A DNA stretch of 64,000 bases from the NCBI GenBank assembly GCA_030684815.1, contig JAUXXQ010000128.1:1-64000 (forward strand), written 5' to 3'. The position numbers and the translations under genes were made by a program. Shown one piece after another: positions 26,746-40,810 of this stretch (the first letter of the stretch is position 1; each line of letters begins with the position of its first letter). The notes below the pieces were generated by a model, which worked only from the letters and a program-made list of their open reading frames with translations, searched no databases and was not told the origin of the DNA. Source of the DNA: Methylobacter sp. (GTDB lineage Bacteria; Pseudomonadota; Gammaproteobacteria; Methylococcales; Methylomonadaceae).

Positions 26746-27837
26746 ATGGCGCTGTATTGTGGAATCGTTGGCTTACCCAACGTTGGAAAATCGACCTTAT
26801 TTAATGCATTAACCCGTGCGAAAATCGCCGCCGAAAATTACCCGTTTTGCACCATCGACCCCAATGTAGGCGTCGTTCCCGTGCCTGACAGCCGCATGGA
26901 CAAACTGGCGGAGATCGTAAAACCCGAGCGCATATTGCCCACAACCATTGAATTTGTCGACATTGCCGGATTAGTTGCAGGTGCATCCAAAGGCGAAGGC
27001 CTGGGTAACCAGTTTCTGGCCAACATCCGCGAAACCGATGCCATTGCCCACGTCGTGCGCTGCTTTGATGATGATAACGTCATCCATGTCGCCGGAAAAA
27101 TCGACCCTATTTCCGACATCGAAGTCATCAACACCGAATTGGCCTTAGCTGACATGGCATCGGTAGAAAAAGCCCTGCTCCGTGCCGGCAAAGCGGCCAG
27201 AACCGGCAATAAAGACGAACAGGCAAAAAAAGACGTGCTGGAAAAAGTTTTCAAGCAGCTTGATGCCGGTGAGCCCGCACGCACCTTGCCCTTAACCGCC
27301 GATGAAAAAGCCCTAATCAGAGACCTGTGCCTGATGACACTAAAACCGGCCATGTACATTGCCAATGTCCAAGACGACGGTTTCGACAACAACCCCTTGC
27401 TGGATAAAGTGCAAGCACTGGCCGACAAAGAAGGCGCCATGGTGGTTCCGATCTGCGCTGCCATCGAAGCCGAAATAGCCCAACTCGACGACGACGAAAG
27501 AAAGGAATTCCTGGATGATTTAGGCCTCGAAGAGCCCGGTTTGAACCGTGTCGTCAGAGCCGGCTACAAGCTATTAAATTTAGCGACTTATTTTACTGCA
27601 GGCGTCAAAGAAGTCAGAGCGTGGACAATTCCGGTCGGCGCCACCGCCCCGCAGGCAGCAGGCGTCATTCACAGCGATTTTGAAAAAGGTTTTATTCGCG
27701 CCGAAGTCGTCGCCTATCAGAATTTCATTGATTATAAAGGCGAACAAGGCGCCAAAGACGCCGGAAAATGGCGGCTTGAGGGTAAAGACTATATCGTTAA
27801 AGACGGCGACGTCGTGCATTTTAGATTCAACGTTTGA
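26746..27837 (+). CDS. ychF: Redox-regulated ATPase YchF (Obg family)
   Basis: YchF is an ancient OBG-family P-loop NTPase that prefers ATP and associates with ribosomes. The 363-residue sequence has the Walker [13 protein letters not shown] at about 7-18, switch region [27 protein letters not shown] (G3 region), and a G4 position reading ANVQDD instead of NKxD, which fits the ATP preference of the family. The TGS domain is at the C-terminus ([20 protein letters not shown]...[10 protein letters not shown]). It lies just upstream of the tRNA-Met gene. Confidence 0.96.
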
Positions 27838-27875
27838 CAAAGAGTGGAGGGATAATTATAATCCCCGCTCTTTGT
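27837..27875. terminator. Hairpin between ychF and tRNA-Met
   Basis: ACAAAGAGTGGAGG pairs with CCCCGCTCTTTGT across an AT-rich loop (GATAATTATA). There is no clear U-run after the stem, so it may be a weak terminator or an mRNA 3'-end stabiliser for ychF. Confidence 0.45.
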
Positions 27876-27890
27876 TAGACTCGATTAAAT

Positions 27891-27967
27891 GGCGATGTAG
27901 CTCAGCTGGTTAGAGCACGGGATTCATAACCCCGGGGTCGGTGGTTCAAGTCCACCTATCGCCACCA
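27891..27967 (+). tRNA. Elongator tRNA-Met (anticodon CAT)
   Basis: The 77-nt sequence folds as a full cloverleaf with encoded CCA. The acceptor stem GGCGATG pairs with TATCGCC, the D-arm contains AGCTCAGCTGGTTAGAGC, the anticodon loop TTCATAA carries CAT, and the T-loop is GGTTCAAGTCC. Similarity to known elongator tRNA-Met (GTAGCTCAG...TAGAGCA...CATAA) argues against initiator or tRNA-Ile2 identity, though a lysidine-type tRNA-Ile cannot be excluded by sequence alone. Its 3' half is the attachment site of the adjacent integrated element. Confidence 0.93.
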
Positions 27968-28006
27968 TATAAAACAAGCACTTAGGTGGAAGCCAAGTGC
28001 TTTTTT
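27919..28006 (+). repeat. attL: 88-bp direct repeat including the tRNA-Met 3' half
   Basis: From GGGATTCATAACCCC in the anticodon arm, through the tRNA 3' end and its terminator hairpin, 88 bp are repeated exactly at 35611-35698. The intact tRNA is on this side, as expected when the incoming element restores the 3' half of the gene. Confidence 0.95.
27976..28006 (+). terminator. Terminator of tRNA-Met
   Basis: AAGCACTT(A)GG pairs with CCAAGTGCTT and is followed by six Ts. The copy at 35668-35699 in attR retains the same hairpin with seven Ts. Confidence 0.85.
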
Positions 28007-28023
28007 ATGTCTGGAATTTAAAA

Positions 28024-28041
28024 TGGCGCAATTTTGGCGCA
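28024..28041. promoter_or_regulatory. Candidate integrase arm-type site, left end
   Basis: TGGCGCAATTTTGGCGCA consists of two TGGCGCA half-copies and is found perfectly again at 35479-35496 near the other end of the element, in the same orientation. Paired sites just inside both att copies are what tyrosine integrases use as arm-binding sites. Confidence 0.55.
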
Positions 28042-28223
28042 CTTTCAAAAAAACAACCGCAACACTTGCCAATAATTCAGGCATAAAAAAGCCGGTGTTA
28101 ACTGGCAAGGCTCAAGGTGGAAAATTTCCACTTCCAGACAAAAGGCATTTATTCGCTGGCGCACTATTTAAGACAGTGACCGTCCCCAAGCATCAATGCC
28201 GCGCAATACTCAAAATTACCCGG

Positions 28224-28339
28224 TTGGTACGCCCTCCCGAATAATCCGCCCTCCTGCCATTTTTTCCCGTGGTCGCCTGCTCTGTTTTGCGACACAATGA
28301 ATTAATATGCTTGTTACCGTGCCAACTCTCTACAAGCCA
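28224..28339. repeat. 116-bp direct repeat, copy 1
   Basis: Beginning TTGGTACGCCCTCCCGAATA and ending CTACAAGCCA, this block matches 28873-28988 with one mismatch that I can see. The copies are 649 bp apart. Confidence 0.9.
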
Positions 28340-28411
28340 TGTAAAACAAAGCCTGTAGCCGGGCACAGCTTTTGCTATTGGTGTTATCAATGTTTGGTTA
28401 ATAATCAGTCT

Positions 28412-28427
28412 GTGAAAATATTTTCAC
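28412..28427. promoter_or_regulatory. Perfect 16-bp palindrome GTGAAAATATTTTCAC
   Basis: This palindrome is the symmetrical form of the TGTGAAATTATTTCTACAG-like motif found upstream of and inside the 205-aa gene of the same element. It probably binds the same protein. Confidence 0.5.
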
Positions 28428-28872
28428 GCGTTACGCGTTACGAAAATTGCAGACACAAAAAAACCGGCATTAACCGGCTTGATTGTTGTAACTGTTTTCT
28501 CAAGTGCCGCCAGATTTCAACCAAGGGGATTTTTCCTAGGTCGGAATATAAAGATGTTCTCGTTATTCCTAGAGCTTAATCGCCAGCGCCCCAAGCCCAC
28601 GCATTAATCCTTGCTGTAATCTTGCCGTAATCTTGCCGTTCGTTTGCGCCGGGTGCGCGTGGGTGATGATATTTAAAAAGCCGGAATCACGGCTTTATAC
28701 CGAGTTTTGCCGGGTGCGCGTGGGTGATGATGTTGATTTTTATAGACTCCTAAGAGTTCAGGAGTCTATTTAGCGCCGCGTTGTCGGTGGGGTGAGGGAG
28801 AATTGCCCCTTACCTATTTTTGCATTCGTCCACCGGCTGAATATTGCAGCCAGTACCGCCAAAATTGCCCGC

Positions 28873-28988
28873 TTGGTACGCCCTCCCGAATAATCCGCCC
28901 TCCTGCCATTTTTTCCCGTGGTCGCCTGCTCTGTTTTGCGACACAATGAATTAATATGCTTGTTACCGTGCCAACTATCTACAAGCCA
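28873..28988. repeat. 116-bp direct repeat, copy 2
   Basis: Second copy of the block at 28224-28339; the sequences diverge immediately after CAAGCCA, so the repeat edge is sharp. Confidence 0.9.
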
Positions 28989-29240
28989 CGCTTTATAAGG
29001 TATTCAGACAGGCACGATGCTTGCAATAGGCGCTGTCAATATTTGGTGAATAATCGACGGGTGGGGGTTTGGGCATAATGCCGCACAGTGCGGTTTTTTC
29101 ATGGTGTAAATTTCCACCATCTTATTCTTGCCACATCACGCGGCTTTCGGCGGCATCTCAAACCGCCAGCGGCTCAAGCGCCAGCCACAAAAAAGCCGAT
29201 ACGATGACCGGCTGATATTTCGTAACACATAACCTGAAAA

Positions 29241-29342
29241 GTTAAGTTTTGTTAAGTTTTGCAAAACTCTAGGTTTTACTAGGTTTTGCAAAAACCCAAG
29301 TTTTCCCTAGTTTTACCTAGTTGAAGTTTAATGAGGTTTTTC
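29241..29342. repeat. AT-rich iteron-like block
   Basis: GTTAAGTTTT occurs twice in tandem, followed by GCAAAACTCTAGGTTTTACT, AGGTTTTGCAAAAACC and several CTAGTTTT/CCTAGTT variants. Repeated short motifs in AT-rich DNA next to a replication-type gene set suggest an origin, but no single consensus is perfect. Confidence 0.4.
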
Positions 29343-29407
29343 CCTGACTGTAGGGTTTTGTAGGTTCAAAAATACTACCTTTTACTATATCTAGTGGTTT
29401 TTCTTAT

Positions 29408-30025
29408 TTAACACACAATATGTAGTGCATCGGTCATTGTCCGAACGATTAAATACTTCACTTGCCGGGTTATCGGTAGGTGGGCATCAAAAGCGCCCCA
29501 TGAGTCGATTGCTGCCTGAACCCATTTCGGTACATCCTGCCGGGCTATGCCGGTGGCGGCTATCAGGCCGTTAATATAGAAGCCGTCGACGGCGATAACC
29601 TGCCTGATTCGCTTGCCGTCCTTGTTGGTATAAAAGGCAATGCGGATAATATCCAGATTGTTTACTTCGGGTTCGTCCTCTGTCTGTGAAATTATTTCTA
29701 CAGGCTTGCTATCTGTTACTTGTGAAATTATTTCTACAGGTTCGCTATCTACTGCTTGTGAAACTATTTCTACAGGTTCGCTGTCTGGTAGCTGTGAAAT
29801 TATTTCTACAGGCTGTTCGTTTGAGTGCAGCCGGTCATAGTGCCATTGCCATATTGCCAGCTTGGTATCGGTGGGCAATACCTTTGCTTTGGTGGTGATT
29901 TTTAGCGCGTCTTTAGCCTGCTTTATCAGCTTGGCTATTTGTCCTTGGCTCTTGGGTGATAAGCCGGATAAAGCCGCTATGGCTTCCGCCAGCTTGCCCG
30001 TGCCGTCATAAATTGATTCGTTCAT
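29408..30025 (-). CDS. Unknown element protein with four in-frame 12-residue repeats
   Basis: The 205-residue protein has an N-terminal helical part (about 1-70), a repeat region at about 71-118 with four copies of a unit like SEPVEIISQxxD, and a C-terminal part (about 125-205, FYTNKDGKRIRQVIAVDGFY) that I do not recognise. The repeat arises because a 20-bp DNA motif recurs every 36 bp inside the gene (separate entry), and the same motif is in its upstream region. The pattern suggests that the DNA repeats, not the peptide, may be what is selected. It is the gene nearest to the putative origin; a role in copy control or replication is possible but unproven. Confidence 0.65.
   Translation of the reverse strand: MNESIYDGTGKLAEAIAALSGLSPKSQGQIAKLIKQAKDALKITTKAKVLPTDTKLAIWQWHYDRLHSNEQPVEIISQLPDSEPVEIVSQAVDSEPVEIISQVTDSKPVEIISQTEDEPEVNNLDIIRIAFYTNKDGKRIRQVIAVDGFYINGLIAATGIARQDVPKWVQAAIDSWGAFDAHLPITRQVKYLIVRTMTDALHIVC
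29685..29812. repeat. Four 20-bp motifs at exact 36-bp spacing inside a coding sequence
   Basis: On the plus strand TGTGAAATTATTTCTACAGG (third copy with one change, AACTATTTC) starts at 29685, 29721, 29757 and 29793. The 36-bp period keeps the reading frame of the 205-aa gene. The intervening 16 bp also encode similar residues but vary more than the motif. Confidence 0.9.
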
Positions 30026-30035
30026 AATGCCTCAC

Positions 30036-30115
30036 TGTGAAAATAATTGCACAAGCCGTTATCATAATCCTGTGAATATAATTTCACAACACAAGCTGTA
30101 GAAATAATTTCACAC
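30036..30115. promoter_or_regulatory. Operator-like motif cluster upstream of the 205-aa gene
   Basis: Three copies of the motif lie just upstream of the start: TGTGAAAATAATTGCAC (30036), TGTGAATATAATTTCACA (30071, nearly palindromic) and TGTAGAAATAATTTCACAC (30097), which is the exact reverse complement of the motif inside the gene. Position and symmetry suggest binding sites for an autoregulatory or replication protein. Confidence 0.55.
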
Positions 30116-30154
30116 CTAAAAAGCCGGTGGTTAAACCGGGGGCTGGTTTATCGC

Positions 30155-30442
30155 TCATTCGTCGAACTCCTGCTCCAAGTCCCAAGTATTCCAGACGGCC
30201 AGCACTTCACTCATGGCCTTGTCTGAATACCAAGGGTCGCCAATGGCTAAAAGGCATTCGCGCCGGGGTAAGTGCAGGCGTTTTTTAAGTTCGCCGGTAA
30301 TCAGGTCGGTGTACTCGCTCCAATAGTCATTTGGATTAATGCCAGCTTTAAGTAGTTGCTCACTGGCTCGGTCTAAAACAAATTCGTGCGCGGTTTGGGT
30401 TAAAGAGCCGATTTCTTCGGATGTCATAAAGTGTTTGGTCAT
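30155..30442 (-). CDS. Small hypothetical protein of the integrated element
   Basis: The 95-residue acidic protein (MTKHFMTSEEIGSLTQTAHE at the start, ending DLEQEFDE) looks soluble and helical. I recognise no family. It lies between the primase-helicase and the 205-aa gene on the same strand. An internal ATG six codons in (MTSEEIG) could also be the start. Confidence 0.5.
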   Translation of the reverse strand: MTKHFMTSEEIGSLTQTAHEFVLDRASEQLLKAGINPNDYWSEYTDLITGELKKRLHLPRRECLLAIGDPWYSDKAMSEVLAVWNTWDLEQEFDE

Positions 30443-30593
30443 TCTATAGCCTTGCCTTTCGGCGTTAAATTAATGGGTTTTTTGATATTCAGTGCAGACA
30501 GTGCAGATAAACCGTGTTTTCTTATTAGCTCCTATAAAAAATTTCCGTGTGGTTAATATGAAAACGGCTTTTATCTGCACTATCTGCACTGAT

Positions 30594-32909
30594 TCACCTG
30601 CCGCTTGCTGTTCCATAGCCGCCTGAATAGCTCGAATTAATGACCGCTAAACCAGACCAAAGGCTTGTGCCGTTTGACCTGCGACTATTAAAACCACGCT
30701 CACCTAGTCGCCTGCCTAGTGCAATGTTGCTGTTTGGTCGTAAGCCGTTATCAATGCACCAGTTTTTATAATTGGCGTAAATTTCAGTCGTTGATGCTTC
30801 ATTCATTGGCGCAAGGTCGCAGCACTCAGATAGCCAGTTTCCGATTAAATCCTGCTCTACCTGATAACTCCCGGTCGCCTGCTCAATCGTTTTTGGCGTG
30901 TCTTTTAAGCCGATTTGCTGCCAGTCAAGACAACCCTCAACCATCCACGCCAGAATATGTGGCGCTTCCGCTTTGAGTTTATCCGCCAGCCCTGCGTCCC
31001 GTTCTTCCGGCTTAAAGGTGCGTTTAAACGGTATCAGCCGAACCCGCCGCCAAATGCCGTGGTCGTTGCCTTTGATAATGGGCTTGTGATTGCCTAACAT
31101 CATCAGCTTGAATTGCGGGGTAAATTGGAACGGGTCACAGTGCAGCTTCCGCGCCGTCATCGTGTCGCCACTTACCAGACTTTTAACCAGTGATTCAGCC
31201 AGCGCCGCACCGTCCTCAGTTTCAGCGCAAACCGCCATTCTTGCGCCTACCAGCTCCGCAAGGTCGGGCGTTGCGCTGCCTGCTGCCCGTTTGGATTCTG
31301 TCAAGGTTTCCGAGGCAATAGCACGGGCATAGTCGCTCAGGATGTAACGCAAAATATCACCAAGCACAGATTTCCCATTCGCACCGAGTCCGAAACAAAA
31401 AACAAATATCTGTTCAGCCGTTGAACCTGTGAGCATGTAACCGCACCAGCGCTGCAGCCAGTCGATTAACTCCGTGTCATCGCCGAATATTTGCGTTAAA
31501 AACGCCTGCCAGCGCACCGCTTTAGTTGATTCGCCTAGACAGTCAACATTCAATGCCTTGGTGATTAAATCGGATTGCAGCGCCGGTCTTGCTCTGCCGG
31601 TTCGCAGGTCGAGAACTTGCCGCCCGTTATCAAAACCCACCTTGAATAAATCGGCATCGACCAATGACAGCGACAAGCGCACTTGCTCGAAGTCTTGCAG
31701 CAATGATACGGTAGCCAATACGGTGCGCTCCTTTTGGCTTGTTCTTGACCACTTCGCAAAATGAATGGCATCAGCCACATGTAGACCGCCCTCGCTATAA
31801 ATCTGCTTAGGCAACCTTGCCGCCAGACTACGCACCGCCGCGCCGTCAACATCCCACGCCCAGGCATCGCCGCGCCATTGCAACCACGCCTTAGCATCAT
31901 GTACATATTGAATGTTGCCGCCGTGGGCATCCATTAGCCTCATCGCGTTGCCTAACTCTGAAAGTGGGCGTGTGCTGTTTGTACCGTCCCGCGCATCGGT
32001 GCCACTCAATGCCGGTGCATCAAACACTTGAACCACTGGCAACCGCATCAGCTCGAAGTGACTACGCACCGCATCTAAGCCGCTGGACTGCTCCAGGTCG
32101 TTAAAGTCCCCGCCGCCCTCTGGAAAAACCGCTGCGCCTGCTACCGCTTCCGCTGCTTCCTCTGCTTTGGCGCGTCCCGGATTGCCCTCTGTTTGGGTGT
32201 CATCATCGCCAGCAATGATAAAATCCGCCTTTGGGTATTGTTTGCGCATCGCCTCCGCAACCGTGCGTAAATTACCCGCCGAAAAGCATACACACGCCGC
32301 GTTATTGGTAGCCCTATGCAATGTGTCGCCAGTCGCAAAACCCTCAGACAGTAGCAAGGTAGCGCCGTTTTCAGGCTTGCCCAGCCATACATGACCACCA
32401 CGCATTTTGCCGCCTTTAGCAAACCGCTTGCCGCCGTCCGGCGTTATGCGCTGAAGTGATTGCAGCGTGTTATCCAGACCGTAAACCGGAATTAATAGGT
32501 TTCCGTGGGTATCAGTCCTCGCCATGTTCGGATTAATGCCTTTGCGCATCAGGTAAGGATGTAACTCATCAGCCAGCGCCGCCGCATCCCACTCAGCTTG
32601 CGATTGAATGGCCGCTTGCCGATACCCAGCATCACGCTCAAGATTTCGCGCTTTATTGGCCGCTATGCAATCCTGCTTAAATTTCGCCTGTTCCGCCGCG
32701 CTAAATGGTTTATCATGCGCTTCCTGCCAGGTGTGCTGCTCCCCGGTACGATTGCAACCAAACACCGCGCCTTTGCTGTCCGTGAATAAATGAACCCATC
32801 CGGCCTTATCGCTAGACTTCCCATTGGTGGAAAATCTAACGGTTTGACCGGCGGGAATGTTGTTCGGTGGCTCGAAGCCTGCCGCCCTCATAGCCGCCGA
32901 TAGATTCAT
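30594..32909 (-). CDS. P4-alpha-type replication protein: TOPRIM primase and superfamily-3 helicase
   Basis: This 771-residue protein combines functions for element replication. The N-terminal third has a TOPRIM-like nucleotidyl-transfer fold, with LLLSEGFATGDTL at about 186-198 and the acidic strand IIAGDDD at 231-237. The C-terminal part is a D5/P4-type helicase with Walker A FGLGANGKS at 506-514 and the typical KLMMLGNHKP and GIWRRVRLIPF segments. Phage P4 alpha protein and many satellite and ICE replication proteins have this architecture. It overlaps the next gene upstream by four bases (ATGA-type), indicating translational coupling. Confidence 0.9.
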   Translation of the reverse strand: MNLSAAMRAAGFEPPNNIPAGQTVRFSTNGKSSDKAGWVHLFTDSKGAVFGCNRTGEQHTWQEAHDKPFSAAEQAKFKQDCIAANKARNLERDAGYRQAAIQSQAEWDAAALADELHPYLMRKGINPNMARTDTHGNLLIPVYGLDNTLQSLQRITPDGGKRFAKGGKMRGGHVWLGKPENGATLLLSEGFATGDTLHRATNNAACVCFSAGNLRTVAEAMRKQYPKADFIIAGDDDTQTEGNPGRAKAEEAAEAVAGAAVFPEGGGDFNDLEQSSGLDAVRSHFELMRLPVVQVFDAPALSGTDARDGTNSTRPLSELGNAMRLMDAHGGNIQYVHDAKAWLQWRGDAWAWDVDGAAVRSLAARLPKQIYSEGGLHVADAIHFAKWSRTSQKERTVLATVSLLQDFEQVRLSLSLVDADLFKVGFDNGRQVLDLRTGRARPALQSDLITKALNVDCLGESTKAVRWQAFLTQIFGDDTELIDWLQRWCGYMLTGSTAEQIFVFCFGLGANGKSVLGDILRYILSDYARAIASETLTESKRAAGSATPDLAELVGARMAVCAETEDGAALAESLVKSLVSGDTMTARKLHCDPFQFTPQFKLMMLGNHKPIIKGNDHGIWRRVRLIPFKRTFKPEERDAGLADKLKAEAPHILAWMVEGCLDWQQIGLKDTPKTIEQATGSYQVEQDLIGNWLSECCDLAPMNEASTTEIYANYKNWCIDNGLRPNSNIALGRRLGERGFNSRRSNGTSLWSGLAVINSSYSGGYGTASGR

Positions 32910-33238
32910 TTAAGCCGCCCCTCAAATCTTTGAACCGCCCGAATGAATCCCGTTAAGCGTTCGCCCAAATCCCGCCGCAACATCGCCAAAACATCAGGCT
33001 CGATTAAATACCGGCCATAAGTTGCATTGCGTCCGGTCGGGTCGCTTGTTGGCGCTGTTTCCTCCAAGGTTTGTATAGGCCAGCCGTGGCGGTTTCGCAG
33101 CTGTTCAATGCCACTTGATAGTCGATAGCTTGCAGTTTCGTTTTGAAAATCGCGGTGTGTAAATCTTTGTCCCGTGACCAATCGCATCAACGCCCGCGCT
33201 GTTAAAGTGTCAGTTCTTGGGAATGTTGGCGTTTTCAT
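32906..33238 (-). CDS. Winged-helix-like small protein of the element
   Basis: The 110-residue basic protein has TARALMRLVTGQRFTHRDF, then SYRLSSGIEQLRNRHGWPIQ, resembling a helix-turn-helix/winged-helix with a strand-forming tail. Such proteins are frequently found beside the alpha-like replication gene in satellites. Start and stop overlap both neighbours by four bases, so it is in the middle of a tight operon. A DNA-binding role is inference. Confidence 0.55.
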   Translation of the reverse strand: MKTPTFPRTDTLTARALMRLVTGQRFTHRDFQNETASYRLSSGIEQLRNRHGWPIQTLEETAPTSDPTGRNATYGRYLIEPDVLAMLRRDLGERLTGFIRAVQRFEGRLK

Positions 33239-33441
33239 TTTGAGCCGCCATTTTGTAACTCAATCCAAGCAAAGAACTTGCCCTCATCAATCAAAACCTT
33301 TCGGCCAATGCGAATGACCGCGCCGGATGCTTTCAAGCCATTTGAATTTTCGTTGAATATTAAAGAGCGTAGCCCGCCGTTAGTGAAAGCGTGGTGTTTT
33401 TCGGTGAATTGATTTACCGTTGAAAGTGTTGGTGTTGTCAT
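33235..33441 (-). CDS. Excisionase/AlpA-like DNA-binding protein
   Basis: The short product from the ATG at 33441 (68 residues) has the layout of an excisionase or AlpA-like regulator. A helix-turn-helix (LSTVNQFTEKHHAFTNGGLR) is followed by GAVIRIGRKVLIDEGKFFAWIE, the typical beta-wing ending that says the residue, when buried, positions the recognition helix. The start is chosen for AGG nine bases upstream; a start five codons earlier is possible. Its place near the integrase fits a role in excision or in control of the replication operon that follows. Confidence 0.6.
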   Translation of the reverse strand: MTTPTLSTVNQFTEKHHAFTNGGLRSLIFNENSNGLKASGAVIRIGRKVLIDEGKFFAWIELQNGGSK

Positions 33442-33561
33442 ACTGAATAACCTCATTGAAAGTTTTATTTCCCGCTGTTGCAGGCTTTCCGCAAGGTTTC
33501 CCTTGCGTTGAGGCTATTAGAGTTTTTTTGCTGGTAGTGAAACGATGACCGGCTTGAAATG

Positions 33562-33595
33562 GTTTAATTTGGTTTAATTTGGTTTAATTTGGTTC
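33562..33595. repeat. Tandem 10-bp repeat at a gene end
   Basis: GGTTTAATTT is repeated three to four times in direct tandem, ending at GGTTCGTG. It covers the stop codon of the 232-aa gene, so copy-number change would alter the C-terminus of that protein. Confidence 0.8.
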
Positions 33596-34272
33596 GTGTA
33601 CTCATTCCAGCGCCTATTAAAAGAGCGTGGATTTAATGGTTTTGTTACACCGATCATTTTTAAATCCTCACCATTAACGGTAATCCCATGTTTAGGTGAG
33701 TCTTTCCATAATGCCGCGCGCGCCTGCACCTTGCTTGGCATTGTATTTTGGTTATTGATGTAAAACTCTTTTGTCATTTCATCAATAACTTCAAACCAAT
33801 CATCCTTGTTAGCGGGTTCGTTTAGCAAGCCTGAAAGGGCTAGTTCGTTATTGTTCGGCTTGCCTAATGGGGGATTAGTTTCTGGCTCTACATCATCAAC
33901 CGCGCCAGCATCGGCCAATATCTCAGCCTGTGCCGGTGCTGCCTGCTGCTCGAACCAATCCCGCAGCGGTTTTTCTGCGTAATCAAGATAACCATTCTCA
34001 CTGAACCAGCGCAGCCATTCATCCGGTCTTTGCGTTAAATTGGGGATAATATCCAGCAATTCGGTTAATGACTCGCAGTCATCGACTGGATTAAATTTAT
34101 TGGCATTTACGCCAACAAGCAACAGCGCCGCTTGTCTTGGTGACCACTCTCTTTTTGCTAACAAGTGCTCCCATTTCAGTTTATTAGTCGGCGTTGGCGT
34201 AAAGCAATCAAACCCCGTTTCAAAGTACAAATCAGATAATAGCGACTCAGGCAAATTAATAGATTCCATCAC
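33574..34272 (-). CDS. Hypothetical element protein overlapping the integrase gene
   Basis: The 232-residue soluble protein starts within the last four bases of int (ATG overlapping the stop region), so it is translationally coupled to it. It has WSPRQAALLLVGVNANKF near residue 45 and a C-terminal NPRSFNRRWNEY motif. I do not recognise a family. The last codons (NQIKPN) lie inside a tandem GGTTTAATTT array, which therefore supplies the stop codon. Confidence 0.6.
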   Translation of the reverse strand: MMESINLPESLLSDLYFETGFDCFTPTPTNKLKWEHLLAKREWSPRQAALLLVGVNANKFNPVDDCESLTELLDIIPNLTQRPDEWLRWFSENGYLDYAEKPLRDWFEQQAAPAQAEILADAGAVDDVEPETNPPLGKPNNNELALSGLLNEPANKDDWFEVIDEMTKEFYINNQNTMPSKVQARAALWKDSPKHGITVNGEDLKMIGVTKPLNPRSFNRRWNEYTNQIKPN

Positions 34273-35330
34273 ACGCCCCCGAAAATCTTTTCATTCATCG
34301 AACCCAGTACATTTGATACATGGGAATCCGAAAGGTGGCTATACCGCTTAACCATTTGCAGCGTCTTGTGTCCCAATACCGCCGCTATATCGGTCATACT
34401 TGCGCCATTCATGGCTAAATAGCTTGCTGTGCAATGTCTCAGGTCATGCCAGGTAAAATCCGTTACCCCGGCATTTTTCCGCGCTGTCTCCCAAGGCGTT
34501 TGCAGGTCAATCGGGTTCAATGGGTTTTTAATGCCGGGAAATAGCAAGGGTGTATCAAGCCGCCGAACTTTGGCATGGTCGCGTAACAGCTCCAGACAAT
34601 GCCCGGTTAAAGGAACGCGCCGCCGGTCGCCGTTTTTGGTTTCATGCAGGATTAAAAAACCGTCCTTTAAATCTACGTCCTGCCATTTCAGGCTAAACAG
34701 TTCAGCTTGCCTCATGCCGGTACTCATCGCTAAAACCACGGTCATATAAAGCAGTTTGTTTCTGGATTCCTTGCAGGCGATTAACAGGCGTTCGCGTTCG
34801 TCATCATCCAAGAACCGAACCCGCCCACGCGCCGCTTTGGGTTTCTTGATGTTCTTCATTGGGGAATCTTCCAGCCATGCCCAATCCCGAACCGCTGTCG
34901 TAAATGCCGTACTCAGCGAGGCCATATATCTCAGTACCGTGGTCGGACTGCGATACTTCCCCCTCACTTGCTCATTCAAGAGCTTTTCTTTAACCAGGGT
35001 TAAGGTGTCGGCGGTCACATCCGCCAGCAACATATAACCAATTTCCTCTTTCCAGCGCCGCAAGTGCAGGCCGGTATGGTCATCTTGAACCTTGTTGAGT
35101 TTTGCACCGGTTAAGTAGCGGTCAATCATTTCCGCCACGGTGTGCTTTTTGGCCTCAGCGGTTTTAAAGTGCCTGCCCTCCCTGATTGCGGATTCGGTGT
35201 CTTGAATCCACTTTTTGGCATCGGTTTTCCGTTTGAATGTAGCCCGTTGCGCTGGGTAGCCTTTTAGCCGGACTTCTGCCCGATAATGTGCCGTTCCATC
35301 TTTAGCTGTACGTTCTGTAATAGTTGCCAT
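34269..35330 (-). CDS. int: Tyrosine-type site-specific integrase
   Basis: This 353-residue phage-type recombinase has an N-terminal arm-binding domain (about 1-60), a SAM-like core-binding domain (about 62-165) and the catalytic domain. All catalytic residues are visible: R207 in MSTGMRQAE, H295 and R298 in HDLRHC, H321 in LGHKT, and the nucleophile Y330 in VKRYSHL. It is adjacent to attR, the usual position for an integrase that targets a tRNA 3' end, and it points into the element. It should drive integration into tRNA-Met and, with the small excisionase-like protein, excision. Confidence 0.95.
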   Translation of the reverse strand: MATITERTAKDGTAHYRAEVRLKGYPAQRATFKRKTDAKKWIQDTESAIREGRHFKTAEAKKHTVAEMIDRYLTGAKLNKVQDDHTGLHLRRWKEEIGYMLLADVTADTLTLVKEKLLNEQVRGKYRSPTTVLRYMASLSTAFTTAVRDWAWLEDSPMKNIKKPKAARGRVRFLDDDERERLLIACKESRNKLLYMTVVLAMSTGMRQAELFSLKWQDVDLKDGFLILHETKNGDRRRVPLTGHCLELLRDHAKVRRLDTPLLFPGIKNPLNPIDLQTPWETARKNAGVTDFTWHDLRHCTASYLAMNGASMTDIAAVLGHKTLQMVKRYSHLSDSHVSNVLGSMNEKIFGGV

Positions 35331-35610: not shown

Positions 35611-35698
35611 GGGATTCATAACCCCGGGGTCGGTGGTTCAAGTCCACCTATCGCCACCATATAAAACAAGCACTTAGGTGGAAGCCAAGTGCTTTTTT
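35611..35698 (+). repeat. attR: 88-bp direct repeat of the tRNA-Met 3' half
   Basis: The sequence is identical to 27919-28006. The 5' half of a tRNA is missing here, so this is not a gene. Beyond the exact repeat the two flanks stay partly alike: AAAAAACAACCGCAACACTT occurs 41 bases further on at both ends, followed by similar ATTCAGGCA and CCGG-containing sequence. Confidence 0.95.
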
Positions 35699-35787: not shown

Positions 35788-38463
35788 TTAATTTGTGCCG
35801 TTCTCCGGTTTATTAATTTCTGCGTCAATACTCGCCCAATTTTTTTCCTTCACCATCACAAACCGACATTTATTATCAGACAAAGAAGCCCACAGACCGG
35901 CAATTAACCTATCGTCTTCAGCTTCTCTCCAGCGGTCTGCCCCTTTATATTCGACAATCAGAATAGAATCATCGGGCAGTACACAAATAAAATCGGGATA
36001 AAATCGTCCATCGGCTTTTTGCAGAAAAAATGAACACGATTCTTTACGCACTAAATTCCGTAACCAAAACTTGATTTTCTTTTTTGCTGCCAATTGGTCA
36101 AGATAACAAGCGCATTCAAATTCTTCTTTAGAATCAAAATCACCAATTTCCCCATAATAATGATGCTCAAAACTATAATGACCGTACTTGCTTTTAACAT
36201 CATAGTTGCGCGTTGATGAATAATATTGCGGGAATTCAAACACATAATGCTCACTGATTGCCGCGTTATCAGCTTCAAACAGCGTTGTTTGATAGGCGTT
36301 TTTAATGGCGAGTTGTCGCAAATCATCAATCTGTTCTTCTAATAAATTACGGACTAAAAACTTGTGTTCATTCACGTCTACCAAGCTAAAATTCTCTAAC
36401 AAGGCTTGCAACCAAGCCATAATAAACACTTGTTTGCTGGCATGAGTCGCTGATTCATCGGTGATATTGCGACACAACCACATTGCCAATTTTATCGTGT
36501 CCCAATGCTCAGGTTGATAAACCAACTCAAGACTACGCTGCAAATTCGCCATGAAAGCGATTTTGACTGTCCCTTTCATGCCATCAATGTCAATTTCCCC
36601 CGCCTCATGTTTTAACTCGGCTTTAAATCGGCTCATCACACTGTCGTAAGGCTTGGCTGCATAGCGTGATAAATCCCACGGATAATCCAACATTTGCGGA
36701 TCATCAAACAACTGTAATTCGCCTTGTACATAAACCGCTAACTGTGGAACACGCACCCTTTCACCGCGTTCTGCGGGGGTTTTAAAAAACTCAACGGCCA
36801 CTAGCCGACTGTTTTCAGCGGCTTTCTCGATAATTATTTTTGATTCACCCTGTTCAACCGTCGCCTTTAAAACCTCCGCATCTTCAACCGTTAAGAGTGC
36901 AGTAATGGTTAATTCTTGCGTGTCATTATTCCAACTGACTTTTTCCCTTAACGGTTTCGGTAATTGCGTTAAAACAGGCCTTTCGGTCAGCGGCACCGGA
37001 ATCGGCGGTATTTTTCTATCTTTAAACAGCTCCAAGTCCAATTGGTCAGGCAAAATGGGCTTGATAAATTGCCCCACTTCTTTACGCTCAAACCCAGCGC
37101 CTTTAACCAAACTATCACGCAACGCGCTGGCGGTTTCTGAAAAGTTTGACGACACTACAAACGCATACGATTGATTAAGCTCAGGCGTATGACGGTGAAT
37201 GGCATCGGGCTGGCGTAAAATGCGCCCTAATAATTGCTCTACCCGCGTTGAAGAATGCACATTTGCCATACTGACCAAGACATAAGCAAATGAACAATCC
37301 CACCCTTCGGCTAAGGCTTGTTGGGTAATGACAAATTTCACCGGACATTTTTTATCCATAATGCCCAGCGGATAGTCTTTGGTTGCCTCCAAACCCCTTT
37401 CATCGCCCGTTGCAATCACAATTTCATGCTCAGGAATCGCGTGATTCGTTATTAACTCCTGTTTAACCCGCTCCACATCCAAGGTATCTTTGCCTGTGCG
37501 TTTCGCTTCGGCTTGAATCAACACAATAGGACGTAAATAATTGCTGCCTAGCAGATATTCCTTATCCGCTAACACCTGCAAATCATTACGGCAGGTTAGC
37601 GCGTAAGCTAAACACTGTTGCCAATTCGGTTCAGTGCGTAACAAAATCGGCAGCTTTATCATCTGCTCGTTTTTTAACTCCACCGCCGAAACGCTGTGCA
37701 GCACATTAGACGGTGTTTCTTTCGTATCAGGCGTGGCGGTAAGTTCCATAATACCGCTGGGATTGAATTTTGCTAAAGTCTCAAAGCTCAATGGTGTGCG
37801 GCTATTGTGCGCTTCATCGACAATAATAAATGGGCGGCGTAAACACAACACATTGGCTAATGAATTGATGACTACGCCGTCTTTTTGCAATGCCTGCCAT
37901 TGTTCGGGGTGAAGATGCTCAAAATGCCCCATTAACGCACCGTTATTTTCATACACCTTGCGGATTTCTTCGTTTTCAACTTTAACTTGAAAGGCTTGGC
38001 GGGTAGCGACTATCACTGTCGTTGCGGTGTTTAATGTTGCCGCTTTCACACTTTTGGCTTCATCCAAACTCAGCACTTCAATTGCGATGGTTCCGTCGTT
38101 TGATAATGCCGCGTTTGATAATGCCGCATACAACGGGTGTTCACGGTCTTTAAAACCTTTGAGCGTTTGCTCCTTAATTTGATTAGACGGTACTAGCCAT
38201 AAAATCACGCTGTGCTCAGTAACCCCTAGCAATTTCTTATTAATAATGTCAACACAACTGGCCGCTAACCAGGTTTTACCTCCGCCTGTCGGCACTCTCA
38301 GGCAAAAATACGGCATATCCTCAGCAAAGCCTGTTAATGATTGATACGGCACACCTGTCATTTCGTAAAAGGCAGTATTCGGGCTTTGTCTGTGGCAGGC
38401 ATTAAAATAATCGGCAACACTGGCTAATATCTGCTCTTGGTACTCTTTGGCAATAAATATCAT
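35788..38463 (-). CDS. res: Type III restriction enzyme Res subunit
   Basis: Res is the ATP-dependent translocase/nuclease of a type III restriction system and cuts only together with Mod. The ~891-residue protein has helicase motifs in order: Walker A RVPTGGGKTWLA near 57-68, the DEAH box IIVDEAHNS, LTATPDT, then QALAEGWDCSFAYVLVSM and the arginine-finger motif LLGRILRQPD. The C-terminal nuclease is visible as RFYPDFICVLPDDSILIVEYKG (split PD...EYK). The ATG at 38463 is chosen with AAGGAG upstream; the longer reading begins with TTG. It starts seven bases after hepT, in one operon with mod. Confidence 0.92.
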   Translation of the reverse strand: MIFIAKEYQEQILASVADYFNACHRQSPNTAFYEMTGVPYQSLTGFAEDMPYFCLRVPTGGGKTWLAASCVDIINKKLLGVTEHSVILWLVPSNQIKEQTLKGFKDREHPLYAALSNAALSNDGTIAIEVLSLDEAKSVKAATLNTATTVIVATRQAFQVKVENEEIRKVYENNGALMGHFEHLHPEQWQALQKDGVVINSLANVLCLRRPFIIVDEAHNSRTPLSFETLAKFNPSGIMELTATPDTKETPSNVLHSVSAVELKNEQMIKLPILLRTEPNWQQCLAYALTCRNDLQVLADKEYLLGSNYLRPIVLIQAEAKRTGKDTLDVERVKQELITNHAIPEHEIVIATGDERGLEATKDYPLGIMDKKCPVKFVITQQALAEGWDCSFAYVLVSMANVHSSTRVEQLLGRILRQPDAIHRHTPELNQSYAFVVSSNFSETASALRDSLVKGAGFERKEVGQFIKPILPDQLDLELFKDRKIPPIPVPLTERPVLTQLPKPLREKVSWNNDTQELTITALLTVEDAEVLKATVEQGESKIIIEKAAENSRLVAVEFFKTPAERGERVRVPQLAVYVQGELQLFDDPQMLDYPWDLSRYAAKPYDSVMSRFKAELKHEAGEIDIDGMKGTVKIAFMANLQRSLELVYQPEHWDTIKLAMWLCRNITDESATHASKQVFIMAWLQALLENFSLVDVNEHKFLVRNLLEEQIDDLRQLAIKNAYQTTLFEADNAAISEHYVFEFPQYYSSTRNYDVKSKYGHYSFEHHYYGEIGDFDSKEEFECACYLDQLAAKKKIKFWLRNLVRKESCSFFLQKADGRFYPDFICVLPDDSILIVEYKGADRWREAEDDRLIAGLWASLSDNKCRFVMVKEKNWASIDAEINKPENGTN

Positions 38464-38470
38464 AGCGGGG

Positions 38471-38920
38471 TTAAACTCCTTGTAAGCGGTTAAAATCAAT
38501 GTGTCGATAATAGCGACTACCCACCGCTAAATTTAATTCTTCAAAACTCAAAATACCTGTTTGCAAACGTGTTGCCGTCAATGCGTAAAGCGTGTTCAAA
38601 AAATCAGGCAAGTTGTTTTTAACCGTATCGAAAATAATCACCACATCCAAAGCCACATAATCATGCGCTATTCGATGCCGTAAATTGCGAATTTTTCCCC
38701 AAGGAATCGCCGCATTATCGTCTAATAAATCATCGCTTAACTTGCCCACTGTTTCACCAATGTGCATTAATAAGGTCAGCGTGGCATTAAAATTAATCTG
38801 CTCGTTATATTCAAAAAAACTTTCTGCCGAATCAGCATCTTTACTGTAAAGCATCACCTTTTCCAAAGATTCAATCATGGACAGCAACGGCAATAAATCA
38901 TTATCCTTATGCCTCAACAT
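38471..38920 (-). CDS. HepT-like HEPN-domain toxin
   Basis: The 149-residue all-helical protein is of the HEPN/DUF86 (HepT) type. The RNase-like motif R-x4-H is present in RNLRHRIAHDY (R81, H86, with Y88). HepT toxins cleave RNA or are held inactive when their MNT partner AMPylates a tyrosine near this motif. The gene overlaps mntA by 14 bases and is followed closely by res. Its place inside a restriction operon is unusual. Confidence 0.8.
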   Translation of the reverse strand: MLRHKDNDLLPLLSMIESLEKVMLYSKDADSAESFFEYNEQINFNATLTLLMHIGETVGKLSDDLLDDNAAIPWGKIRNLRHRIAHDYVALDVVIIFDTVKNNLPDFLNTLYALTATRLQTGILSFEELNLAVGSRYYRHIDFNRLQGV

Positions 38921-39206
38921 AACGGATATCCTTCATAGCTCGGTGCAGCACGATTGGATTCGCCCAACTTTTCAGCATCACATCCAAACTATTATCGACT
39001 TCCTGTTCTAAACACTGCTTAAACTGCAAAGCTGCTTCTAGGGATAAATCATCTTCAATTAACAAATCAATATCGCGTGCAGGTTCATTGCGGGCAAATG
39101 AACCAAAGACACCTAAATGAGAAATTGAAAATTGTTGTAACAGTTTTCGCTGTTTAAGTAACGCTTGTAATTCATCTACCGATGATAAATGTTGCCGTTG
39201 TTTCAT
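38907..39206 (-). CDS. MntA-like minimal nucleotidyltransferase antitoxin
   Basis: The 99-residue protein has the minimal nucleotidyltransferase core, with GSFARNEPARDIDLLIED at about 35-52. It supplies the Gly-Ser and the two catalytic aspartates, D45 and D47. The spacing between GS and the first Asp is two residues shorter than the common GS-x10-DxD pattern. MntA antitoxins inactivate HepT by adding AMP. It starts two bases after the mod stop and overlaps hepT. Confidence 0.78.
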   Translation of the reverse strand: MKQRQHLSSVDELQALLKQRKLLQQFSISHLGVFGSFARNEPARDIDLLIEDDLSLEAALQFKQCLEQEVDNSLDVMLKSWANPIVLHRAMKDIRYVEA

Positions 39207-39208
39207 GT

Positions 39209-40810
39209 TTATTTCCCCAGTGCATAAGGCGTTTGCTTAACAATAATTTGCTTATCTTTCAGCCAACTGTCACCGCCGCGTTTTGCCGTTGCATAAATAA
39301 TTTTTTGCCCTTGAAAAACTGGCAAGTCTTTAAAAATAGTGGGGGTCAGTACATTGCCTTTGTCGGGGTCTTTATCGCCTAAAATGCCGTTGTACAGTAA
39401 ATAAATAGCGCGCCCGTCAAACACGCCCAATAACGGTGAATCGGCTTTACCTGTGTAACCTGTTTTTGTTTCGGTCAGCCAGACAAATTCAGCCAATTGC
39501 CTAAACGTCACATCGGCGTTGATTTGACCATCGGCAGTGAATAAGGGTTCTTTGGATAAGCGGCAGAATTGAAAACCGCCGCCTAAGCCTTCAACGGGTT
39601 CACCTTTAGCATTGCTGTAGCCTTCAATCACCCGTTTATTGCGTTCGGCGGTGACGGTGGTGGCTATAGTTTCATCCATTTCTACTAAAATGAATTTTCG
39701 GTTGCCGCCGTCTTGTTTGTTGAGATTTAGCACGGCGTGGGCGGTTGTGCCACTGCCTGCAAATGAGTCGAGAACTAGAGAGTTTTTGTCAGAGAAAGCT
39801 TGAATAAGTTTTTGCAGTAACTCTGGGGGTTTTGGAAAAGAAAAAACCTTTCCATCACCGAATAATTCCTTAACTTCATTTGTGCCATGTTGCGTGTAGA
39901 TACCTTCAATGATTGAGTACAATTTAGCACCACGCTCTTCCCCATCCCCGTCTTTCAGATACTGCTTATAATTGACGCTCCACTTCCCCTTAACTTGTTT
40001 GATTACCAATTCATCGTTTTCAATAGCAGCTAAACAACGTTCGCGTGACCATTGCCACTGTTTTTCTGGCCATATTTCATGCCCTTCAAATGGGATTGCA
40101 TAACGAAGATTTGGGCGAGCATCCATACTGTTAGTTGCCAGTGGTTGCAAACGGTATGCCCCTCGTGTTTCGTGATTATGGTCGCTAAACTTATAATAAC
40201 GTCTGGTATTTTCGTCGGGTGGCAATACAATCTCTCCGAGACGGTCACGATACTTTGCAAAACAAAGAATATATTCGTGTAAATTTACCACTTGCTTAGA
40301 TTTTGCCCCTCCACCATAACTTTTCTTCCATACAAATGTTTCCACTCTATTTTGAATGCCAAAAATTTCGTCGAACAACAATTCTGCATACCGATGTTCA
40401 TTTCCATCTAGCGACATTAAAATAACCCCGTCATCCTTTAAAAACTGTTTAAGCAACAACAAACGCGGGTACATCATGCACAACCATCTATCATGACGGT
40501 CTAAGGTTTCACCTTCTTTGCCAACCACTGCGCCCAACCATTTACGGATTTCAGGGCTGTTGACATTATCGTTATACACCCAGCCTTCATTGCCTGTGTT
40601 ATACGGCGGGTCGATATAAATACATTTCACTTGTCCTGCATAACGCGGTAACAAGGCTTTCAGCGCGTGCAAATTATCACCCTGCACAATCAAATTGCCG
40701 CTATCGCTGTCACCACAAGACAATTCGGGGACAGGTTCTAACAAGCGATAAGGCACATCTTGATGGTGTTTTTCGACGGCAGCTTTGCCTATCCAATTCA
40801 ATGTCGGCAT
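39209..40810 (-). CDS. mod: Type III DNA adenine methyltransferase Mod subunit
   Basis: Mod recognises the site and methylates adenine for the type III system. The 533-residue sequence has the beta-class order of motifs: catalytic motif IV DPPYNTG at 67-73, then, further on, the SAM motif I DSFAGSGTTAHAV. The target-recognition region lies between them, and FILVEMDE is present. The length is normal. It is the first gene of the operon mod-mntA-hepT-res. Confidence 0.93.
   Translation of the reverse strand: MPTLNWIGKAAVEKHHQDVPYRLLEPVPELSCGDSDSGNLIVQGDNLHALKALLPRYAGQVKCIYIDPPYNTGNEGWVYNDNVNSPEIRKWLGAVVGKEGETLDRHDRWLCMMYPRLLLLKQFLKDDGVILMSLDGNEHRYAELLFDEIFGIQNRVETFVWKKSYGGGAKSKQVVNLHEYILCFAKYRDRLGEIVLPPDENTRRYYKFSDHNHETRGAYRLQPLATNSMDARPNLRYAIPFEGHEIWPEKQWQWSRERCLAAIENDELVIKQVKGKWSVNYKQYLKDGDGEERGAKLYSIIEGIYTQHGTNEVKELFGDGKVFSFPKPPELLQKLIQAFSDKNSLVLDSFAGSGTTAHAVLNLNKQDGGNRKFILVEMDETIATTVTAERNKRVIEGYSNAKGEPVEGLGGGFQFCRLSKEPLFTADGQINADVTFRQLAEFVWLTETKTGYTGKADSPLLGVFDGRAIYLLYNGILGDKDPDKGNVLTPTIFKDLPVFQGQKIIYATAKRGGDSWLKDKQIIVKQTPYALGK

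Follow-up and report, generated by a model that had tools for sequence, protein, structure and literature searches.

The gene for the lambda initiator O carries, in its middle, 19-bp near-palindromic iterons that bind initiator dimers. Lambda has four of them, and two Stx phages have six, the additional pair lengthening O by 13 residues (sections of PMC7466680 and PMC5043065). In Rep of pSK41, a RepA_N protein, the origin boxes lie within rep and encode a dispensable linker between two domains, and copy number is under antisense RNA control. The hybrid Rep of pPR9 differs from it in the DNA-binding domain and the origin region together, with the other domain kept, which suggests that a binding domain and an in-gene origin can be exchanged as one (sections of PMC5703833). 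For Rep_3 iteron plasmids such as pSK639, repeats near the rep promoter have been proposed to serve both the origin and autoregulation (sections of PMC5703833 and PMC5043065), and the origins of Gram-negative PICIs consist of two iteron sets flanking an AT-rich region (sections of PMC6092414).

Here we describe one gene in the mobile elements of methane-eating bacteria that has the same short signal in front of it and inside its own protein code. The signal changes with the tail of the protein across relatives, so that this stretch of code would seem to serve also as a docking array for the encoded protein. By analogy, the family of this 205-aa protein would work most like lambda O and pSK41 Rep, with the domain order reversed and the same site at its own promoter. 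We do not file it as a member of either the lambda O or the RepA_N family, because no homology to them was found.

Results

The element and its self-site gene

The window, the whole 64,000-nucleotide stretch of Methylobacter sp. DNA that was analyzed, contains an integrative element of 7,692 bp with an 88-bp exact direct repeat at its ends, which includes the 3´ part of tRNA-Met. The features of the element are:

27919–28006, strand not given: left end, first copy of the 88-bp exact direct repeat, with the 3´ part of tRNA-Met (gene 27891–27967) inside
28411–28428: further palindromic site TGTGAAAATATTTTCACG, with a 16-bp perfect palindrome core, in a non-coding part of the element
29408–30025, minus strand: 205-aa self-site gene, the subject of this study
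29411–29650, minus strand: codons of the C-terminal beta-hairpin and three-helix domain (aa 126–205), whose class the sites follow
29675–29815, minus strand: codons of the predicted disordered linker (aa 71–117, pLDDT < 50)
29685–29702: in-gene site d, exact, encoding VEIISQ
29721–29738: in-gene site c, exact, encoding VEIISQ
29757–29774: in-gene site b, one mismatch, encoding VEIVSQ
29793–29810: in-gene site a, exact, encoding VEIISQ
29825–30025, minus strand: codons of the N-terminal three-helix domain (aa 1–67), common to all classes
30036–30053, minus strand: upstream site 1, 3 bases differ, at -28 from the start codon
30061–30066, minus strand: -10-like box TATGAT, between upstream sites 2 and 1
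30071–30088, minus strand: upstream site 2, 3 bases differ, at -63 from the start codon
30097–30114, minus strand: upstream site 3, exact reverse complement of TGTGAAATTATTTCTACA (19 bp exact), at -89 from the start codon
30155–30442, minus strand: 95-aa protein, function unassigned, without family match
30594–32909, minus strand: primase-helicase, 771 aa (Toprim_3, D5_N, DUF5906)
32906–33238, minus strand: 110-aa winged-helix-like protein (weak match, HTH_91, E 0.023, below its cut-off)
33235–33456, minus strand: 73-aa small protein (DUF6462, E 7e-4, below its cut-off)
33574–34272, minus strand: 232-aa protein, function unassigned, without family match
34269–35330, minus strand: tyrosine integrase, 353 aa (Phage_integrase, E 8.2e-33)
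35611–35698, strand not given: right end, the other copy of the 88-bp repeat, at a distance of 7,692 bp from the left-end copy

The 73-aa protein is possibly an AlpA-like regulator; an AlpA match is present in the related element L088. With an integrase, a possible small regulator and a primase-replication gene, joined in relatives by a terminase-small-subunit-like gene, the element resembles PICIs, and its defined site (the 88-bp repeat at tRNA-Met) together with integrase and primase-replication gene gives it a PICI- or P4-like outline. PICI origins are made of iteron sets, to which the dyad array described here would correspond if it had an origin role, as the analogy suggests. The window element differs from PICIs in its size of 7.7 kb, without a recognized terS or an identified helper.

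An earlier note on this DNA, made from the letters alone, had described a motif recurring four times at exactly 36 bp within the 205-aa gene. The spacing and the number of copies of this 18-bp near-palindrome, TGTGAAATTATTTCTACA, both stand, with the correction that three copies are exact and one has a mismatch. The exact reverse complement and the two variants that the note placed upstream are upstream site 3 and upstream sites 2 and 1, respectively, and its perfect palindromic version at 28412 is the TGTGAAAATATTTTCACG site. Allowing up to three mismatches, the window has 7 matches to the dyad, versus 0.02 expected and a maximum of 1 in 100 shuffles. The arrangement of in-gene and upstream sites is not unique to the window element, since contig C45 of the same genome carries another copy of the gene, which has five in-gene and six upstream sites.

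The 205-aa protein and its family

In an AlphaFold2 model of the window protein (mean pLDDT 78.0, pTM 0.44), all four in-gene sites fall within the codons of the predicted disordered segment between the two domains, and a model of a class 2 homologue (classes are defined below) has the same layout. The C-terminal domain is predicted to consist of a beta-hairpin and three helices. Its best structural matches, 3kk4 (Z 5.6–5.7) and 1u9p, a permuted single-chain Arc (Z 5.0), are below 8 and too weak to assign a fold; the domain is possibly ribbon-helix-helix-like.

The protein family could not be matched to any known family. Pfam gave none above cut-off, where a cut-off was shown, for the window protein and its relatives, and PHROG none at 1e-3 for the window protein or 27 A2 members. 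A sequence search of the PDB found no match up to E 10, and Foldseek with the window model found none in PDB or BFVD at E 0.001 or better. When the 27 A2 members were compared with Pfam, the lowest E, for MgtE_N (5.9e-4, best of three members, no cut-off shown), was taken as chance; HTH_28 matched seven of the 27, with a best value of 0.0038. In the portions of the literature covered by our search, no paper was found that names the family.

Relatives and their sites

Of the 23 genomes of the genus, 7 have homologues of the gene, as do 33 of the 237 in the family, with the window's genome counted in both, and the named loci (26) come from Methylobacter, Methylovulum and other Methylococcales and Methylococcaceae assemblies. 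No homologue of the protein was confirmed in viral contigs, and phage records and plasmids gave no match. Relatives were found through the protein, not through the DNA motif. From 48 sources we obtained 38 distinct proteins with an N-domain match at 1e-4, leaving out duplicates and several relatives that were partial or more divergent (such as L075/L097, L094, L099 and L106). Of these, 35, including the window's, were assigned to classes defined by the C-terminal domain (13 in class 1, 18 in class 2 and 4 in class 3), and three were left unclassified (L082 at 2360, L092 and L109).

The site type is TGTGAA..TTCACA in class 1 and TGTTTAA..TTAAACA in class 2. All 31 genes of these two classes have at least one site of their own class and no site of the other class in the coding sequence. 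The count is 30 of 30 without L083, for which the class test is circular because its contig ends before the C-domain and it was put in class 1 by its linker and sites. Class 1 genes have two to nine in-gene sites each (nine in L076) and class 2 genes one to four (one in L088 and in L090). Own-class sites also lie upstream of 28 of the 31 genes (11/13 in class 1, 17/18 in class 2), with starts clustering near -28, -62 and -87 in both classes. The exceptions, L072, L073 and L086, keep 5, 5 and 3 in-gene sites, respectively, and upstream of L009 there is one other-class match beside six own-class sites.

Given that these site definitions were derived from the same sequences, we used as a check a motif-free comparison of the best 18-mer shared between the 120 bp upstream and the coding sequence. 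The within-class values were 16.0 (class 1) and 15.6 (class 2) of 18, versus 13.1–13.2 between the two, and with all three classes none of 2000 label permutations reached the observed difference, although copies within one gene and related genes are not independent. Coding and upstream motifs thus vary in step across relatives, which is the other way from the refuting outcome that the earlier note had named.

The N-terminal domain is common to all classes (mean identity between classes 1 and 2 of 0.53, versus 0.28 for the C-domain), and therefore, as far as sequence comparison goes, it is the C-terminal domain that the sites follow. A tree of the N-domain needs nine class changes (three classes, minimum two; 14 of 32 inner branches weakly supported), which argues that C-domain and sites are exchanged together.

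This pattern bears on what binds the sites. P4 initiator helicases bind iterons, and the primase gene of the window lies near the 205-aa gene, so that the primase-helicase, or else a host factor, could be the binder, with the gene merely hosting the sites. PICI origins likewise have iterons beside pri-rep (sections of PMC6092414). We consider this very unlikely. A related primase family is present in only 11 of the 35 elements (within the stretches examined, several of which end at contig ends), and in the class 2 element L085 the primase and the integrase share 70% and 86% identity, respectively, with those of the window, yet the sites are different. Both classes also coexist in one host, in each of the genomes G002 and G008, which again speaks against attributing the difference to a primase or a host protein. 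Since the motif goes with the gene's own C-terminal domain and not with the primase, the 205-aa protein is the likely binder, and it very probably binds its own sites.

The four class 3 genes (L091, L101, L103 and L113) encode a C-terminus with GGVRxGAGRK and have a third motif, GTTACATNAWTCAA, which lies upstream, at 24-bp steps in L091, L101 and L103, and has one or two copies within the coding sequence. Recoded controls are exceeded by these in-gene copies in L101 (2/300) and L113 (12/300) only, and not in L091 (49/300) and L103 (56/300); a match to GTTACATNAWTCAA is also present in the coding sequence of one class 1 gene (L070). We do not count class 3 as proof of the self-site pattern.

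Codon choice within the sites

Within the sites, the share of same-residue codon pairs that are identical is 0.90 in class 1 and 0.97 in class 2, versus 0.39 and 0.47 in a control of 15 aligned C-domain codons. Among codon differences, the synonymous share is 0.15 and 0.05 in the sites, versus 0.67 and 0.80 in the C-domain control. Isoleucine is ATA in 52 of 52 site codons, versus 1250 of 6397 pooled. Neighboring codons are coupled as well: GTA precedes G 54 times and GTG precedes A 9 times, copies not being independent, with single exceptions of GTA before A, GTG before G and GTT before G. All 117 in-gene sites have one and the same reading phase.

When the genes were recoded with local codon usage, class 1 had 67 in-gene sites versus 5.5 expected, with p < 0.01 in 12 of 13 genes, and class 2 had 50 versus 16.9 expected in sum (maximum of 1000 simulations, 26). 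Taken gene by gene, the class 2 test reached p < 0.01 in only 5 of 18, and within-gene codon shuffling, a weaker test, mostly gave no rejection in class 2.

In the in-gene phase, the class 2 half-site TTTAA would be an in-frame stop. This left half is altered in 50 of 50 in-gene copies and present in 35 of 37 upstream copies; the right half, TTAAACA, is retained in 44 of the 50 in-gene copies. At the end of the gene, a site spans the stop codon in 14 of 18 class 2 genes and usually supplies TAA (TGA in L088, TAG in L112).

The alternative is that selection acts on the peptide repeat, for example as a binding motif in the linker, and that tandem duplication produced the DNA repeat as a side effect. 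The class 1 spacing is 36 bp in 42 of 54 gaps, as tandem duplication would give, and most site peptides share a V-x-x-x-[S/K]-[Q/H] outline. These features are outweighed by the freezing of synonymous codons while residues vary, and by the identity between genes of 0.83/0.84 for site DNA (classes 1/2), above 0.65 for the site peptide, with the next 18 nt at 0.35. The same sites moreover occur in non-coding upstream DNA, and class 2 spacing is irregular. We therefore reject a peptide-driven repeat, which appears extremely unlikely. Among the 31 class 1 and 2 genes, none has the peptide without the DNA dyad; the loss of the motif at synonymous positions with the peptide kept, which the earlier note had named as evidence against its idea, is the opposite of what is seen. 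As same-residue codons are identical while amino acids vary, it is the site DNA that is under selection, with the peptide repeat a by-product, as the note had supposed. Its notion of a protein-binding array sharing space with a coding region is strongly supported at the sequence level, as a predicted DNA-binding array within a coding sequence.

Promoter layout and distribution of the sites

In 20 of the 26 genes that have an upstream site 1, the 18 bp before it contain a -10-like hexamer with at most one mismatch, versus a mean of 3.7 and a maximum of 9 in shuffles, and in 18 of the 26 the start of the best hexamer lies at -12 to -14 relative to site 1. Because the upstream sites flank this -10-like box, we infer that the gene is autoregulated, which we regard as likely.

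Autorepression could also be the whole story. Auxiliary operators can lie within genes, as lac O2 does, and the in-gene copies could be operators of this kind, reinforcing repression through looping to the promoter or blockage of RNA polymerase, with no part in an origin. The position of the upstream sites around the -10-like box, the lac O2 precedent and the fact that sites are largely restricted to the 205-aa gene fit this idea. We nevertheless think it unlikely that repression is all there is, as the three genes without an upstream site keep their in-gene sites (L072 and L073 are close relatives, so that the absence may be one event), and as up to nine in-gene copies are more than looping needs.

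Outside the gene the sites are scarce. The flanks have one class 1 site in ~138 kb and 18 class 2 sites in ~223 kb, 10 of the latter at neighboring gene copies on L082; the locus L082:2360-8486 has two classified gene copies and one truncated copy. In the host genome (4.29 Mb), 17 places match with at most two mismatches, 11 of them in and around its two copies of the gene. This distribution, like the class 1 count in the flanks, rules out a host-wide repeat or a mobile palindrome inserted into genes. Class-1-like sites with no gene nearby occur elsewhere in the host genome (L010:3535-3936, L011:3680-3723, L013:1077-1119 and L012:6879-7114), some of them 25–26 bp apart, and are perhaps remnants of such elements.

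The near restriction of the sites to one locus, their varying number and a binder specific to the element would also be expected of a partition, incompatibility or copy-counting array, through which the protein would pair or titrate copies of the element instead of initiating replication. On plasmids, small DNA-binding proteins bind centromere-like repeats, which offers a precedent. However, there is no ParA-like ATPase among the scanned neighbors, and an integrated element needs no partition; we judge such a role improbable.

Discussion

We propose that the 205-aa gene encodes a two-domain DNA-binding protein whose C-terminal domain would recognize the 18-bp dyad in two places: at the three dyads (-28, -63 and -89) that flank the gene's own -10 box, and at an array of one to nine copies across relatives that lies within the codons of the disordered linker between the two domains. 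In class 2 relatives, a further dyad usually spans the stop codon. Binding upstream would autoregulate the gene, most likely by repression. Binding to the in-gene array would most likely form the nucleoprotein core of the element's replication origin, where the N-terminal domain could hand over to the replication machinery, as with lambda O and pSK41 Rep. As a whole, this explanation, a self-binding initiator and autoregulator with its own in-gene array, has in our estimation an even chance of being right. Our best reading of the protein is a modular initiator/autoregulator of satellite-like elements, for which we infer binding, autoregulation and origin function.

Of the roles that the earlier note had raised (replication control, partition or counting), an origin role is the one that we favor, by analogy. 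The origin assignment is the most tentative of these parts: by analogy, the in-gene array may well be the replication origin, but we stop short of calling this probable. The adjoining replication genes vary (D5/Toprim, DUF3987, Prim-Pol, Toprim_2, SSB, or none recognized, with several neighborhoods ending at contig ends), which is not expected if the N-domain loads one fixed partner, and in some elements the gene stands before a terminase-like or DUF5681 gene. The two class 2 genes with a single in-gene site were counted against an origin role. No conserved AT-rich (melting) region adjoins the in-gene array across relatives; the 3´ flank in the window has an AT content of 0.69, 0.61, 0.68 and 0.68 in the first four 80-bp windows, and this AT-richness is not conserved in relatives.

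The likeness to lambda O lies in repeated dyads inside the coding sequence of the presumed binder, which all 31 class 1 and 2 genes have (two with one site). In contrast to lambda O, the sites here follow the C-terminal domain and also occur at the gene's own promoter, AT-richness beside the array is not conserved, and the family has no Pfam or PHROG match to lambdoid O (window protein and 27 A2 members). As in pSK41 Rep, the window sites, as putative origin boxes, encode the linker, at aa 71–117 with pLDDT below 50. The polarity is reversed, with the N-domain binding DNA in RepA_N and the C-domain appearing to do so here; the family has no RepA_N match in Pfam; and dyads flank the promoter here, in place of the antisense RNA control of pSK41. 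Repeats near the own promoter recall what was proposed for the Rep_3 plasmid pSK639 (in the sections cited above), whereas in the Rep_3 examples covered by those sections the iterons are outside the rep coding sequence and here they are also in-gene, and the 205-aa protein has no Rep_3 match in Pfam.

It is conceivable, though we hold this with less than even confidence, that these genes form a new family of self-encoding origin-plus-initiator cassettes, in which the binding domain, operators, linker sites and class 2 stop-codon site are exchanged together. If so, a single gene would be initiator, own operator and own origin in one, and the genetic code would be bent to the site, with a stop avoided within the gene and supplied by the site at its end. 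The sites offer a clear natural case of selection on DNA overriding selection on protein within a coding sequence, silent positions being frozen while residues drift. The repeated joint exchange of C-domain and sites provides ready pairs for testing the concerted evolution of a binding domain and its operators, and the system offers a route to the minimal replicon of an uncharacterized group of methanotroph integrative elements.

Other observations on the element

An Rfam scan of 27800–31000 found tRNA only. Within the element, 28211–28406 and 28860–29055 are a 196-bp non-coding duplication with 86% identity, and a 39-nt inverted repeat (85% complementary, 26 nt between arms) lies at 30489–30592, between the primase and 95-aa genes. 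Just beyond the right repeat, at 35788–40810, a HepT-like/nucleotidyltransferase-like gene pair sits between type III restriction-like genes (ResIII, N6_N4_Mtase).
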